Shown here: piece after piece, positions 3,645 to 8,359 of the stretch
Layout of the letters: each line of letters starts with the position of its first letter
Position numbering within the stretch: position 1 is the first letter of the stretch
Assembly (NCBI GenBank): GCA_017998095.1
Contig: JAGODU010000132.1
Location: forward strand, 1-11,472
Length of the DNA: 11,472 bases
Source: Prolixibacteraceae bacterium
GTDB lineage: Bacteria > Bacteroidota > Bacteroidia > Bacteroidales > Prolixibacteraceae
Direction of reading: 5' to 3'
The notes under the pieces: generated by a model
Database searches by the model: none
Told to the model about the DNA's origin: nothing
The model's input: only the letters and a program-made list of their open reading frames with translations
Position numbers and translations under genes: made by a program

Positions 3645-4727
3645 ATGAAGACTACACCTTTTACTCAAATGCATATTGAAGCAGGAGCTAAAATGCTTCC
3701 TTTTGCCGGATATAATATGCCAATAGAATACTCCGGAATTAAAGATGAACACATGACTGTCAGAAATGGAGTAGGGGTATTTGATGTATCTCATATGGGA
3801 GAAATATGGGTAAAAGGGAAAAATGCTCTTGAATTCGTACAGAGTGTAACATCGAATGATGCTTCTATACTTATACAGGGTCAAGCGCAATATTCATGTT
3901 TTCCAAATGGTAAGGGGGGAATTGTTGATGATTTACTGGTTTACTACTTTGAAAAAGATAAATACCTGCTTGTCGTTAATGCTTCAAATACTGAAAAAGA
4001 TTACAACTGGCTTGTTTCAAATAATAAATTCGACGTTGAAATTGAAAATGCATCTGATAATATAGCACAGTTGGCAATTCAAGGGCCAAAGGCGGCTGAA
4101 TTAATGCAAAAGCTTACTGATACTGATTTGAAATCGATTCCTTATTATCATTTTAAAACAGGAAAATTTGCTGGAGTTGAAAATGTAATAATATCAGCAA
4201 CCGGATATACAGGAGCAGGTGGCTTTGAAATTTATTTCTATAATGAATATGCTACTCAAATATGGAATTCACTGTTTGAGGCAGGAAAAGAATATGATAT
4301 CAAGCCTATTGGTTTAGGAGCCCGTGATACATTACGTCTGGAAATGGGATTTTGTTTATATGGAAATGACATTGACGATTCAACATCTCCATTGGAAGCT
4401 GGATTGGGTTGGATCACCAAGTATACACCTGAAAAAGATTTCATTGATAAAGCATTTCTTGTAAATCAAAAAGAACAAGGAATAAAAAAACGTCTCAGGG
4501 GTTTTAAAATGATTGATAAGGGAATTCCCCGTCACGAATATGAAATTGCTGATGCAGAAGGAAATATAATTGGAAATGTAACTTCAGGATCAATATCACC
4601 TGTTCTGGGTATAGGAATTGGTATGGGCTATGTGAAATATGAAAATTCAGAAATAGGAAGTGAAATTTTCATCAGTATTAGAGGAAGACTATTAAAAGCT
4701 GAAATAGTTAAGTTCCCATTTATTTAA
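3645..4727 (+). CDS. gcvT: Aminomethyltransferase, glycine cleavage T-protein
   Basis: T-protein of the glycine cleavage system transfers the methylene group from the aminomethyl-lipoyl arm of H-protein to tetrahydrofolate, releasing ammonia and giving 5,10-methylene-THF. The sequence has the family hallmarks: FDVSHMGE at 46-53, [10 protein letters not shown] at 91-100 with the catalytic aspartate of the DD pair, VNASN at 111-115, a GYTG...FEIY folate-site segment at 187-197 with Glu195, [11 protein letters not shown] at 223-233, and PLEAGLGW at 249-256. Length (360 aa) is normal. The folate segment reads YTGAGG where many homologues have YTGEDG. The start at 3645 gives the standard MKTTPF N-terminus. 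gcvH and gcvP are not in the window. A weak -7-like TAATTTTT lies at 3615-3622. The gene converges on the next one with 3 bases between stop codons and no visible terminator. Confidence 0.97.
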
Positions 4728-4730
4728 AAG

Positions 4731-5570
4731 TTACTGTTTATTAGCTTTTTCAATAAACTTTAGTTTGAACTGTACAAGGCCATTTTTATATGTGCCACCC
4801 AATACTATTTCATAATTTTTACCGGGTAGGAAGTTGAATGTTTCAGTGTGAACAATTCCATCAATAATCCTGTTTCCAAGTATAAGATATTCAAATTTAT
4901 GCCTGCCCGCTTTTATTTTAATGTTTAATTCCCCATTATTTTTATTGAAATATTTAAAATCGAAAGGTTTCGAATAATCACAAAGGCCATAAATATCACC
5001 AATTTCATTTGTGATCATATCATCAATTCTGGTTATAAAAGGATGTGTGGAATTATTGTTTGCAGGTATATATGTTACATTTACAATTGAATCCTGGGGA
5101 ATAGGTAAAGTAGGTATGTCTTCGACTTTAAAATTTGTTTTAATATTTTTATCTTTTCTTTTACCTTCAACTTCAATGTTAAAGTTATTTCGTATCATCC
5201 TGTATACAGCACCGGATTTCATTTCAATGGTTATTTTCTTTACAATAATATTTTTTGAACAAGTGTTCAATCCTTTATCATTCAAGACTAATTCAAATGT
5301 ATGTTTTCCGGATTTTAATTCAATTTCAAAACAACCTGTAGAATTTGCTTTATTAAATCCAAATTCATAGTATAGAGAAGAATATTCTTTTCTGAGTTCA
5401 TTGTCTACTTTATAAAGGCAAGTATTAGGGACATGACTTTTATCACCTTCAAAAATAAAGACAGAATTTCCTGTTTTAGTGTTTTTACTATATAAATCTG
5501 ACGATATAAACGAGATTAGGGAAAGGGTGATTAACAATAATTTTATATTTATAGTTTTCATCTTAGACAT
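4731..5570 (-). CDS. Unrecognised exported protein with internal duplication
   Basis: I do not recognise a named family. Residues 4-28 form a signal peptide: MKTINIK, then a hydrophobic stretch (LLLITLSLISFI). There is no clear lipobox, so it is probably cleaved by signal peptidase I and periplasmic or secreted. The mature part appears to be two diverged copies of a beta-rich unit, about 36-136 and 163-274. The best-matching segments are FEIELKSGKHTFELVL (81-96) and LNIKIKAGRHKFEYLI (215-230), each followed by a second strand pair ending in a G-x-x-Y turn (ITIEMKSGAVYRM; ETFNFLPGKNYEI). The G-[KR]-H-x-F-E turn resembles beta-sandwich lipoprotein-type domains. Four cysteines occur in the mature part. 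Start may be the ATG at 5570 or the one at 5561; the latter gives the more typical signal peptide. It is monocistronic. Confidence 0.75.
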   Translation of the reverse strand: MSKMKTINIKLLLITLSLISFISSDLYSKNTKTGNSVFIFEGDKSHVPNTCLYKVDNELRKEYSSLYYEFGFNKANSTGCFEIELKSGKHTFELVLNDKGLNTCSKNIIVKKITIEMKSGAVYRMIRNNFNIEVEGKRKDKNIKTNFKVEDIPTLPIPQDSIVNVTYIPANNNSTHPFITRIDDMITNEIGDIYGLCDYSKPFDFKYFNKNNGELNIKIKAGRHKFEYLILGNRIIDGIVHTETFNFLPGKNYEIVLGGTYKNGLVQFKLKFIEKANKQ

Positions 5571-5583
5571 TTAATGTTGCTTG

Positions 5584-5591
5584 CAAAATTA
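5584..5591 (-). promoter_or_regulatory. -7 element for the exported-protein gene
   Basis: The minus strand reads TAATTTTG here, a perfect TAnnTTTG match. Transcription would start near 5578, giving a leader of only about 8-17 nt to the ATG at 5570 or 5561. No good -33 element was seen; the inverted repeat TTAAC-GT-GTTAA (5603-5614) occupies the space around it. Confidence 0.45.
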
Positions 5592-5602
5592 ATTAAAAGA
5601 AT

Positions 5603-5614
5603 TTAACGTGTTAA
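5603..5614. repeat. 12-bp inverted repeat near the -33 region
   Basis: TTAAC-GT-GTTAA is a perfect dyad 12 bases upstream (minus-strand sense) of the -7 element at 5584-5591, a typical place for an operator. Similar TAAC/GTTA half-sites occur at 124-145. No regulator can be assigned. Confidence 0.3.
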
Positions 5615-5687
5615 TCTAAAGAACAGAGAAACAAAATTTTATTTGATATTAAATATTCGATTGTTGTGATATTTTATAATTAAATAC

Positions 5688-5706
5688 AATTTATTGCCAA
5701 TAAATT
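5688..5706. repeat. 19-nt palindrome upstream of the serC promoter
   Basis: AATTTATT-GCC-AATAAATT is a perfect inverted repeat with 8-bp arms, about 45 bases upstream of the -33 element of the serC promoter. It could bind a dimeric regulator. It is AT-rich, so chance occurrence is possible. Confidence 0.35.
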
Positions 5707-5749
5707 ATAAATTCAGGATTTACTAAATAATCAATTTTGTTATAAAAAT

Positions 5750-5782
5750 TTTGATTTTCTTCATACATAAATTATATCTTTA
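5750..5782 (+). promoter_or_regulatory. serC leader promoter
   Basis: TTTG (5750-5753), 21 bases, then TATCTTTA (5775-5782), which matches TAnnTTTG at 7 of 8 positions. Element identity and spacing fit the Bacteroidota primary sigma factor consensus (TTTG-N19-21-TAnnTTTG). Transcription should start near 5788, about 15 nt before the leader ORF and about 180 nt before serC. Confidence 0.65.
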
Positions 5783-5803
5783 TCCCGATATTTATATTCT
5801 ATA

Positions 5804-5890
5804 ATGATGAACATTATGACAGGAGAATGGTATAGATACAATACTGGGTGGTACACTACTTACCACTATTCATGCCGATCTTGTTCCTGA
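5804..5890 (+). CDS. Candidate serC leader peptide (28 aa)
   Basis: An ATG at 5804 opens a 28-codon ORF ending in TGA (5888-5890). The peptide starts MMNIMTGEWYRYN, is very rich in Trp/Tyr in the middle, and ends Ser-Cys-Arg-Ser-Cys-Ser just before the stop. Three of the last six codons are serine (TCA, TCT, TCC) and two are cysteine (TGC, TGT), the amino acid made from serine. It sits between a good promoter and a hairpin, upstream of a serine biosynthesis gene, which is the arrangement of a ribosome-stalling attenuator. A 6-bp hairpin (GTGGTA 5848-5853 with TACCAC 5861-5866, 7-nt loop) lies within it. The start could also be the ATG at 5807 or 5816. Its function is inferred from composition and position, not from a recognised family. 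Confidence 0.5.
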   Translation: MMNIMTGEWYRYNTGWYTTYHYSCRSCS

Positions 5891-5906
5891 TATACAATTT
5901 ATTTTA

Positions 5907-5924
5907 CCGATTACTATTAATCGG
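5907..5924 (+). promoter_or_regulatory. Hairpin in the serC leader, possible attenuator
   Basis: CCGATTA (5907-5913), loop CTAT, and TAATCGG (5918-5924) form a perfect 7-bp stem beginning 16 nt after the leader stop codon. The following bases (AAATCTTAATTTA) make only a broken T-tract, so this would be a weak terminator or a translation-control structure. The 3' arm's ATCGG could alternatively pair with CCGAT at 5875-5879, inside the leader's Cys-Arg-Ser codons, which suggests competing folds that a stalled ribosome could shift. Confidence 0.45.
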
Positions 5925-5969
5925 AAATCTTAATTTATCGAATATTAAAACCATCAAATAATTATAAAA

Positions 5970-7040
5970 ATGAAAAAACACAACTTTTCTGCAGGACCAT
6001 CGGTTTTACCGGAATTTACTAAGGAAGAAACAGCTAAAGCAGTAATGAATTTTGCTGGAACAGGATTGTCTGTTATGGAAGTTTCACACCGTGGAGCAGA
6101 ATTTCAGGCTGTAGTAGATGAAACTATTGCCCTTGTTAAGGAAATACTCAACGTTCCTGAAGGATATTCAGTATTACTTTTACAGGGTGGTGCGAGTCTT
6201 CAGTTTTATATGGCACCTCTTAATCTTCTTATTAAAAAAGCAGCTTATCTCAATACAGGAGTATGGGCTAGTAAAGCATTAAAAGAAGCTAAGCTTGTAG
6301 GAGAGGTAATAGAAGTTGCTTCATCAAAAGATAAGAATTTCAATTATATACCTAAAGGTTTTACAGTACCATCAGATGTTGATTTTTTGCATGTAACAAC
6401 AAACAACACTATTTATGGAACTGAGCTCGAAGGTGATTTAGATGTAGCTGTGCCTATGGTAGCAGATATGTCATCTGATATTTTCAGTCGCCCGATTGAT
6501 ATTAGTAAATATGATCTTATTTATGCCGGTGCCCAGAAAAATTTAGCACCAGCAGGATTGACTCTTGTAATAGTTAAAGATACAGTATTAGGAAAGACAG
6601 GAAGGGTAATTCCAACAATGCTTGATTATAAAGTTCACATTGATAATGGTACAATGTTTAATACTCCTCCTTGTATTGCAATATATGCAGCGCTGCAGAC
6701 TTTAAAATGGTTAAAAGGATTAGGAGGAGTTTCTGTCATGCAAAAAATGAACATTGATAAAGCTAAGATTCTTTATGATGAAATAGACAGAAATAAAATG
6801 TTCAAAGCTGTAGTTCCTGATCCAAAAGACCGTTCAATAATGAATATTTGTTTTGTACTTGAAGAACAATATTCAGATCTTGAAAAAGAATTTATGGCAA
6901 TAACAAAGGCTAAAGGAATCGATGGAATTAAAGGACATCGTTCAGTTGGTGGATTCAGAGCTTCATGCTATAATGCCCTTCCAAAAGAGAGTGTAGAAGT
7001 TCTCATTGAAGCAATGAAAGAATTTGAATCACAGCATTAA
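5970..7040 (+). CDS. serC: Phosphoserine aminotransferase
   Basis: This PLP enzyme converts 3-phosphohydroxypyruvate and glutamate to 3-phosphoserine and 2-oxoglutarate, the second step of the phosphorylated serine pathway. Homologues often also act on the phosphohydroxythreonine intermediate of PLP synthesis. The N-terminal [10 protein letters not shown] (5-14) is the family signature. GGAS (73-76) and Trp99 in TGVWA contact the cofactor, as does Asp166. [12 protein letters not shown] (185-196) carries the Schiff-base Lys190, and the C-terminal [11 protein letters not shown] segment is intact. Length (356 aa) is normal and the ATG at 5970 starts directly at the signature. The gene has a long leader with a candidate Ser/Cys-rich peptide and hairpin, so it is probably controlled by attenuation. 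It ends at a strong terminator, and serA does not follow. It acts in the cytoplasm. Confidence 0.98.
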
Positions 7041-7047
7041 AATATTG

Positions 7048-7081
7048 AAAATGCAGAATTAACCTTCTGCATTTTCTTTTT
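7048..7081 (+). terminator. serC terminator
   Basis: AAAATGCAGAA (7048-7058), a 6-nt loop and TTCTGCATTTT (7065-7075) form a perfect 11-bp stem followed by a T-rich tract. It starts 8 bases after the serC stop. DUF1015 therefore either has its own promoter in the remaining 30 or so bases, where I see no good one, or is read by leak-through. Confidence 0.8.
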
Positions 7082-7111
7082 TATTCTTTTCTAAAATCAA
7101 AATTATTTAAA

Positions 7112-8359
7112 ATGGCAGTAATTAAACCATTTAAGGGGCTAAGGCCTTTAAAAGATCTGGTCTCTAAAGTTGCATCACGCCCATATGATGTATTAAATTC
7201 AGAAGAAGCAAGAGCTGAAGCAGGAGCTAATATTTATTCACTCCTGAGGATAATAAAACCAGAGATTGAATTTCCTGTTGGAACTGATGAACATGATCAA
7301 AAAGTATATGATAAAGCAGTAGAAAATTTTTTGTTATTCCAGAAAAAAGGGTGGCTTGTTCAGGATGAAAAGGATTGTTTTTATATATATGCTCAAACCA
7401 TGAACGGCAGGACTCAATATGGACTTGTAGCATGTGCTTCTGTTGATGATTATTTGAATAATGTAATTAAAAAACATGAATTGACACGGAAAGATAAAGA
7501 AGAAGACAGGATGAAGCATGTTCGTAATACAAATGCAAATATGGAACCGGTTTTCTTTGCTTATCCAGCCGTAAAAGAGATAGATGAAATTGTAAGAAAT
7601 ATTACCGGGCTTGAAGATCCTGAATATAATTTTATTTCGGAAGATGGCTTTGGACATCATTTCTGGGTAATAAAAGATGATAATACAATCAAGAGATTAG
7701 TTGATCTTTTTGCTGAAATACCTTCCACATATGTTGCTGATGGTCATCACAGAACAGCAGCAGCAGCACTTGTGGGTGCTGAAAAACGTAAATTAAACCC
7801 TGATTATAATGGCGATGAAGAATTCAATTATTTTCTTGCTGTTCATTTTCCTGATAATCAACTAAGAATCATTGATTATAACAGAGTAGTTAAAGACCTG
7901 AATGGATTAACAGTAAAAGAACTTGTTGAAAAGCTAGAAGAAGATTTTTCAGTTGAAAAATTGGGTAGTGACATTTATAAACCTGATCAGCTTCATACAT
8001 TCAGCATGTATTTATCCGGTAACTGGTACAAGCTTGTCGCAAAAGAAGGACGTTATAATGATAATGATCCGATTGGGGTACTTGATGTAACAGTACTTTC
8101 TAATCTGGTACTTGATAAAATTCTTGGAATTAAAGATTTAAGAACAGATAAGAGAATCGATTTTGTTGGTGGGATCAGAGGTTTAGGAGAACTTTCAAAG
8201 AGAGTTGATAGCGGAGAAATGGCTGTTGCATTTGCATTATATCCTGTTTCAATGAAACAGCTTATTAATATTGCCGACTCTGGTAATATAATGCCTCCAA
8301 AAACAACTTGGTTTGAACCTAAGTTGAGATCTGGGTTGGTTATACACAAGCTTGATTAA
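7112..8359 (+). CDS. DUF1015 family protein
   Basis: This is a full-length DUF1015 (COG4198) protein of 415 residues with no signal peptide, so cytoplasmic. Recognisable motifs are the N-terminal PFKGLRP...ASRPYDV (6-27), HELTRKDKEEDR (122-133), the signature ADGHHRTAAA (209-218), and the C-terminal TTWFEPKLRSGL (398-409). The family has no firmly assigned reaction that I know of. Genes of the family are repeatedly found with serC and serA in Bacteroidota and Firmicutes and were once annotated as ParB-like. The DGHHR segment resembles the active-site region of ParB/Srx-fold proteins, a group that includes the archaeal free serine kinase SerK. A role in serine/phosphoserine metabolism is therefore plausible but inferred. 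It lies 71 bp after serC, with a terminator between. The ATG at 7112 gives the usual MAVIKPF start. Confidence 0.93.
   Translation: MAVIKPFKGLRPLKDLVSKVASRPYDVLNSEEARAEAGANIYSLLRIIKPEIEFPVGTDEHDQKVYDKAVENFLLFQKKGWLVQDEKDCFYIYAQTMNGRTQYGLVACASVDDYLNNVIKKHELTRKDKEEDRMKHVRNTNANMEPVFFAYPAVKEIDEIVRNITGLEDPEYNFISEDGFGHHFWVIKDDNTIKRLVDLFAEIPSTYVADGHHRTAAAALVGAEKRKLNPDYNGDEEFNYFLAVHFPDNQLRIIDYNRVVKDLNGLTVKELVEKLEEDFSVEKLGSDIYKPDQLHTFSMYLSGNWYKLVAKEGRYNDNDPIGVLDVTVLSNLVLDKILGIKDLRTDKRIDFVGGIRGLGELSKRVDSGEMAVAFALYPVSMKQLINIADSGNIMPPKTTWFEPKLRSGLVIHKLD

Follow-up and report, generated by a model that had tools for sequence, protein, structure and literature searches.

A clade-specific short reading frame ahead of serC in uncultured Bacteroidota, a probable leader peptide with a Ser/Cys-rich end

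Amino-acid operons controlled by leader-peptide attenuators include those led by trpL, hisL and others. The locus described here shares with such systems a short open reading frame (ORF) in the 5' leader of a biosynthesis gene, codons related to the product near its end and a hairpin close by. It differs in using Ser/Cys rather than Trp, His or branched-chain codons and in a long run of other residues conserved at the protein level; moreover, the search described below found no convincing intrinsic terminator or either/or fold. Within the Bacteroidota, attenuation by leader peptides has been inferred from strong clues in Flavobacterium psychrophilum, there too for amino-acid operons (PMC9723704), and B. 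thetaiotaomicron is reported to carry short ORFs resembling leader peptides in its long 5' UTRs (PMC7366714). Bacteroidota peptides that arrest at the stop codon upstream of sec genes (PMC10987492) likewise combine an upstream ORF in regulatory position with a conserved C-terminus at a fixed distance from the stop; arrest peptides of this kind stand upstream of tnaA or sec genes and end in Pro, whereas the serC leader, at most a candidate for arrest, ends in Ile-Gly (Ser in the genome studied here).

Two further systems resemble the locus in how they read Ser or Cys. Mycobacterial short ORFs that control an operon through Cys codons are, by the title of the report, leaderless and poly-cysteine (Canestrari 2020); the serC leader has a predicted 5' leader of about 20 nt and alternates Ser and Cys in a fixed motif, and since Cys-Cys occurs in none of the 20 tails compared below it is not poly-cysteine. 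In Bacillus subtilis, serine shortage is read through translation of TCN serine codons in SinR (PMC3862929), where the codons lie in the regulated gene itself and not in a separate ORF as here. In the open-access literature, outside which most subscription papers fall, we found no report of leader-peptide control of serC or serine synthesis in Bacteroidota, and no occurrence of the string PVQMGW in 5.39 million open papers. If the reading proposed below is true, it would add leader-peptide control of serine synthesis in Bacteroidota, and a single leader would unite the sensing of codon supply with that by nascent-chain arrest, which are as a rule considered separately.

The reading frame ahead of serC and its family

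The window, by which we mean the whole stretch of 11,472 nucleotides analysed from a Prolixibacteraceae contig, contains, among other genes, gcvT (3645-4727) and serC for phosphoserine aminotransferase (5970-7040, (+)), whose product is recognised by the NCBIfam transaminase model NF003764. Between the two lies a reverse-strand gene (4731-5570, (-)) that could not be assigned to a family with confidence, its only match, to DUF4399, being sub-threshold; a DUF1015 gene (7112-8359) follows serC. A promoter, a 28-codon ORF and a hairpin all sit between 5571 and 5970, and re-reading of the sequence placed these elements and serC exactly where the initial annotation had them, although the peptide has five Tyr residues and not the six it had counted. 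The promoter, P1 (5750-5782, (+)), consists of TTTG at 5750-5753, a 21-nt spacer and the -7 box TATCTTTA at 5775-5782, and is of the Bacteroidota type (consensus TTTG / TAnnTTTG). The 8-mer TATCTTTA is present upstream of the ORF in all six leader loci (the window and the five relatives introduced below). In the 400 nt upstream of serC in the window, no TAnnTTTR box other than that of P1 occurs; a sigma-70 scan, which is not designed for promoters of the Bacteroidota type, gave 2 sites, neither of them at P1, where shuffled sequences gave 4.3. No other such box occurs in the 195 nt before serC, which leaves unsupported a transcription start downstream of 5890, named in the initial annotation as speaking against a leader.

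The ORF (5804-5890, (+)) encodes 28 residues, MMNIMTGEWYRYNTGWYTTYHYSCRSCS-stop. Its codons align without gaps to the conserved tail of its relatives (5828-5887, (+)), with W at 5828, GW at 5846-5851 and SCRSC at 5870-5884, followed by Ser. Five of the last 12 residues are Ser or Cys. Such a content would not by itself be unusual, since 125 shuffled loci are expected to yield about 4.5 ORFs with at least five; it is because of homology, not composition, that we count the ORF as real. Judged by that homology it is no chance ORF and belongs, as a short and diverged member, to a clade-specific family of peptides that usually have about 68 residues. Pattern searches found homologous ORFs in five of the 140 genomes of one Prolixibacteraceae-like family (G001, G040, G041, G126 and G130), in each case, as in the window, directly ahead of serC. 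Three of these ORFs (G001, G126, G130) encode 67-69 residues; the short serC-linked forms have 28 (window), 32 (G041) and, counted from its first in-frame ATG, 33 (G040). A profile built from the long ORFs retrieved 12 predicted proteins from a public protein collection and, in a second round, 15 (the same 12 plus three), mostly of 67-69 residues and with the common tail W-x-PVQMGWFTS[SC]Y[CS]S[CS]RS[CRW]IG-stop; one of them, P0003, is the G130 protein. The length of 67-69 residues is kept in 15 of the 17 long forms (P0001-P0017) although the part before the tail varies; by eye, hydrophobic and aromatic residues look frequent in that part. Of the members scanned, P0006 matched nothing in Pfam, and neither P0006 nor P0007 matched an NCBIfam model.

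Across 20 tails (16 distinct, including the window and two short forms), G7, W8, T10, S15, R17 and S18 are invariant, while P3, V4, M6, S11 and Y13 are altered in the window alone. If the window is set aside, 56 of the 57 residues at positions 12, 14 and 16 are Ser or Cys, so the C-terminal Ser/Cys codons singled out in the initial annotation are indeed conserved within the clade; at position 19 Cys, Arg or Trp occurs. In 18 of the 20 sequences G21 is the final residue, P0010 being one residue longer and the window one shorter, and 13 residues (12 in the window) separate Trp8 from the last residue. Ser and Cys occupy 6-7 of the nine codons at positions 11-19 in the five relatives and 6-7 of their last 12 residues. 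The window departs from this pattern by RYNT in place of PVQM, by a stop one codon early and by ending in CS. The N-terminal two thirds are highly variable and absent from three of the six serC-linked forms, which makes the tail probably the working part of the peptide.

Selection on the reading frame is evident from a codon alignment on a fixed anchor, gap-free from the Trp codon (Leu in G001) to the end of the ORF. Among the five relatives PVQMGWFTSS has a pS of 0.81, synonymous sites thus being nearly saturated, and a pN of only 0.02; the same DNA read in the two other frames gives the reversed pattern. This is the synonymous-substitution bias the initial annotation had looked to, and it argues strongly for a peptide that is produced and whose sequence is important. 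Between the window and the relatives, GW.T plus SCRSC are still constrained, with pS 0.45 and pN 0.08 for codons picked after inspection of the alignment; all 19 codons give pS 0.72 and pN 0.34. The distance from the P1 box to the first in-frame ATG is 21-26 nt in five of the six loci (21 nt in the window) and 109 nt in G040; from this spacing, ribosomes on the P1 transcript probably translate the leader ORF before anything else, and translation from the start of that transcript is supported by selection and spacing alike.

How far does the family extend? Of the family genomes, 133 bear serC, and 129 of them were surveyed upstream of it (125, then G026, G032, G071 and G091, the latter four yielding no leader there), with the ORF present in five. 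In G015, G036, G049 and G128 the serC start is cut off, and these were covered by a whole-genome pattern instead, whose two extra one-mismatch matches in the 140 genomes fall in G045 and G072. Among 80 serC loci from public genomes, the ORF, here ending MGWFTSSYSSCRSWIG, precedes serC only in the closest one (L001, 79% SerC identity, a Prolixibacteraceae MAG whose genome is G001) and is absent from the other 79, two of which (L025, L080) have less than 300 nt of upstream sequence. Conservation as the initial annotation envisaged it across Bacteroidota therefore fails in general (1 of 80 serC loci) and is limited to a single small clade. Across 393 genomes of the order, VQMGWF had, besides G001, a single match (G274), judged to be chance; a longer pattern in 371 genomes of the same order, largely the same genomes, gave nothing new, and VQMGWFT in 296 genomes of the phylum occurred in none besides G001. 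The G274, G045 and G072 matches all lie out of phase within open frames of more than 1,300 nt and were dismissed as chance, as were most matches of an early pattern list, of which four with TCATGCCGATC were read individually. An ORF ending SCRSCISG in L236 overlaps, in a different frame, the end of an open frame of 318 nt and was likewise put down to chance.

A serC tree with 44 rows unites the six leader genomes and the leaderless G123, G124 and G127 in one 9-row clade (support 100/99), and the window pairs with G040 (support 82/90). The presence of the leader needs two changes on this tree, which is compatible with, and does not prove, a single origin with later loss. On the genomes searched, the leader family is so far confined to one uncultured Bacteroidota clade.

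RNA folds around the end of the leader

In the relatives, the codons CRS-x-IG form a hairpin, SL2 (e.g. CCGATC-TTG-GATCGG), that ends right before or at the stop codon. Its exact segment is stabler than 98.4-99.6% of synonymous recodings in four of the five relatives, while in G130 SL2 is weak (30% of recodings as stable); over a longer segment 3-19% of recodings are as stable in the four and 60% in G130. Because the adjoining synonymous sites are nearly saturated, this suggests that SL2 is not explained by descent alone, though the relatives are non-independent. Taken as a whole, the 21-codon tail has no exceptional stability (12-84% of recodings as stable). A candidate hairpin over the PVQMGW codons, SL1, found no support, since 4-15% of recodings matched its stability in four relatives, 59% did so in G130 and 77% in the window.

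The window retains CCGAT, the 5' arm of SL2, in its Cys-Arg-Ser codons (5875-5879, (+)), and the 3' arm ATCGG, which would encode Ile-Gly, is absent from its ORF. Sixteen nucleotides after the leader stop lies a perfect 7-bp hairpin without a U-tract, CCGATTA-CTAT-TAATCGG (5907-5924, (+); -7.1 kcal/mol), whose outer arms CCGAT/ATCGG are the same as those of SL2. When the 79 nt after the ORF are shuffled, a perfect hairpin of at least 7 pairs, at least 3 of them GC, turns up in 0.66% of cases; for the 183-nt leader the figure is 1.2%. The leader as a whole folds somewhat better than its shuffles do (z of -2.1, with 7 of 200 shuffles as stable). The initial annotation proposed that the in-ORF CCGAT and the local 5' arm compete for the hairpin's 3' arm. 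This switch is unsupported in the window, since the alternative pairing reaches -2.7 against -7.1 kcal/mol for the local one and has an ensemble probability of 0.

No intrinsic terminator was detected at 5571-6020 of the window, and our own scan (a stem of at least 5 pairs with at least 3 GC, a loop of 3-9, then 5 T in 8 bases) found no terminator-like stem with a T-run after the leader in the window, G040, G041 or G001, and no qualifying stem at all in G130; G126 has one weak candidate (5 T in 8), which lies inside a second promoter-like element, P2. No U-tract follows SL2 in the relatives. Of the attenuator that the initial annotation suggested, a selected leader ORF, its conserved Ser/Cys codons and a conserved promoter are upheld; no convincing intrinsic terminator was found in the six loci, and the alternative fold proposed for the window is not competitive. 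Rfam gave no match in the window at gathering score, and in nine related loci, at E up to 1, three implausible sub-threshold matches (two miRNAs and one Enterococcus sRNA).

How the leader could act

We consider it highly probable (about 0.85) that 5804-5890 is a real cis-acting leader peptide of serC, notwithstanding the three members of the clade that are without one. What could be its mechanism? The frozen PVQMGWFTS speaks for contact between the nascent chain and the exit tunnel and the interchange of Ser and Cys for codon supply; the constancy of PVQMGW, of GW above all, argues for nascent-chain arrest at least as much as for the counting of codons. We give even odds to the two acting together in ribosome-mediated control of serC. 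More specifically, and only tentatively, the family may be one of nascent-chain-assisted Ser/Cys sensors, arrest peptides of about 68 residues in which PVQMGWF would prime the ribosome to stop at the Ser/Cys codons or at the stop codon, the same mRNA serving as the hairpin that signals to serC. In the preferred reading, the ribosome would slow or arrest at the stop codon or close to the Ser/Cys-rich end, with Gly-Trp-aromatic-Thr, and in the relatives Pro-Val-Gln-Met, placed in the exit tunnel at a distance of some 11-18 residues from the end of the chain. A shortage of Ser- or Cys-tRNA may add to the arrest. The position of the ribosome would then set whether SL2, or in the window its counterpart after the stop, is open or folded, and the fold could determine how much of the P1 transcript is produced, is retained or yields SerC, through candidate routes that include Rho, mRNA stability and translation.

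A rather unlikely account, the model of the initial annotation in its pure form, dispenses with the nascent chain and holds that stalling at Ser/Cys codons suffices to switch folds, the other conserved residues being incidental. The product of serC is a precursor of serine, and serine of cysteine, so the swapping of Ser for Cys and for nearly no other residue at positions 12, 14 and 16 would be expected if either starved tRNA serves, and the density of such codons at positions 11-19 in the relatives fits as well; the protein-level freeze of PVQMGWFTSS, however, is not needed by such a device, which also finds neither a convincing terminator nor a competitive fold and, in the window, is down to five Ser/Cys codons in the last 12. 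A small, well-defined tail means that point mutations can separate the sensing of codons from that by the nascent chain. The opposite simplification, in which codon identity is irrelevant and the nascent chain forms a pocket where a free ligand blocks release at the stop codon, is modelled on TnaC, with its 12 residues between W12 and P24. The spacing from Trp8 to the end comes near this, 18 of 20 tails terminate precisely at Gly21, and stop-codon arrest peptides do exist in Bacteroidota (PMC10987492). We nevertheless regard this as unlikely, because the Bacteroidota NAP-stop and NSP-stop peptides end in Pro and the present family in Ile-Gly, and because SL2 constrains the last codons at the RNA level too.

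Whether the peptide needs to act in cis, and whether it still acts in the window, bear on the preferred reading of a cis-acting leader as well. The constant length of 15 of the 17 long forms and an invariant C-terminus suited to a binding motif could belong to a small protein that works in trans and precedes serC merely as a member of its operon, but against it stand the N-terminal two thirds, which vary widely and are missing from the window, G041 and G040, the overlap of SL2 with the end of the ORF and the want of a Pfam (P0006) or NCBIfam (P0006, P0007) match, and we hold it to be very improbable. The window copy, for its part, could be decaying, since PVQM and the in-ORF arm of SL2 are lost and pN over 19 codons is 0.34, and being short and without PVQM it may work less well. 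Complete decay, that is, a relic without function of a leader that works in the relatives, would also account for the short form and the fewer Ser/Cys codons; it seems quite improbable given that the frame is open, that the start and its promoter spacing are retained, that GW.T and SCRSC persist with their low pN of 0.08, and that a hairpin with the same CCGAT/ATCGG arms stands downstream.

A second promoter and the genes around serC

The promoter-like element P2 stands between leader and serC in G001, G041, G126 and G130, four of the five relatives, and is absent from the window and G040. Where P2 is present, control by the leader could extend to the P1 transcripts alone. P2 is laid out as TTGATTTTTCTCAYC, about 21 nt, then TAATTTG, and lies about 95 nt before serC in L119, L120, L121, L122, L128 and others. 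It carries a candidate TGA-N6-TCA site, presumably CRP/FNR-like, near -41 by hand count. In raw counts, 55 of 126 loci have TTGA(T)-N5/6-TCAY no more than 300 nt from serC, with 36 of the sites at -100 to -81. A reading of the TTGATTTTTCTCAYC...TAATTTG stretch as a covarying RNA was dropped because its arms, judged by eye, are not consistently paired across loci and its spacing fits a promoter with an operator.

Gene order downstream of serC varies within the clade. A serA-like dehydrogenase gene, its match below the NCBIfam cut-off, separates serC from the DUF1015 gene in G001 and G041, and an ORF with a serA-like start lies downstream of serC in G126. In the window (spacer 7041-7111) and in G040, the DUF1015-type gene follows serC directly with no serA-like gene there, in contrast to L001 and L113; the two genomes without P2, the window and G040, are thus also without a serA-like gene after serC. 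A TGA-N6-TCA inverted repeat overlies the -33 element of P1 in the window as well (5752-5763), and, by eye, G001 and G040 are without one and G041, G126 and G130 carry it at nearly the same place before P1.
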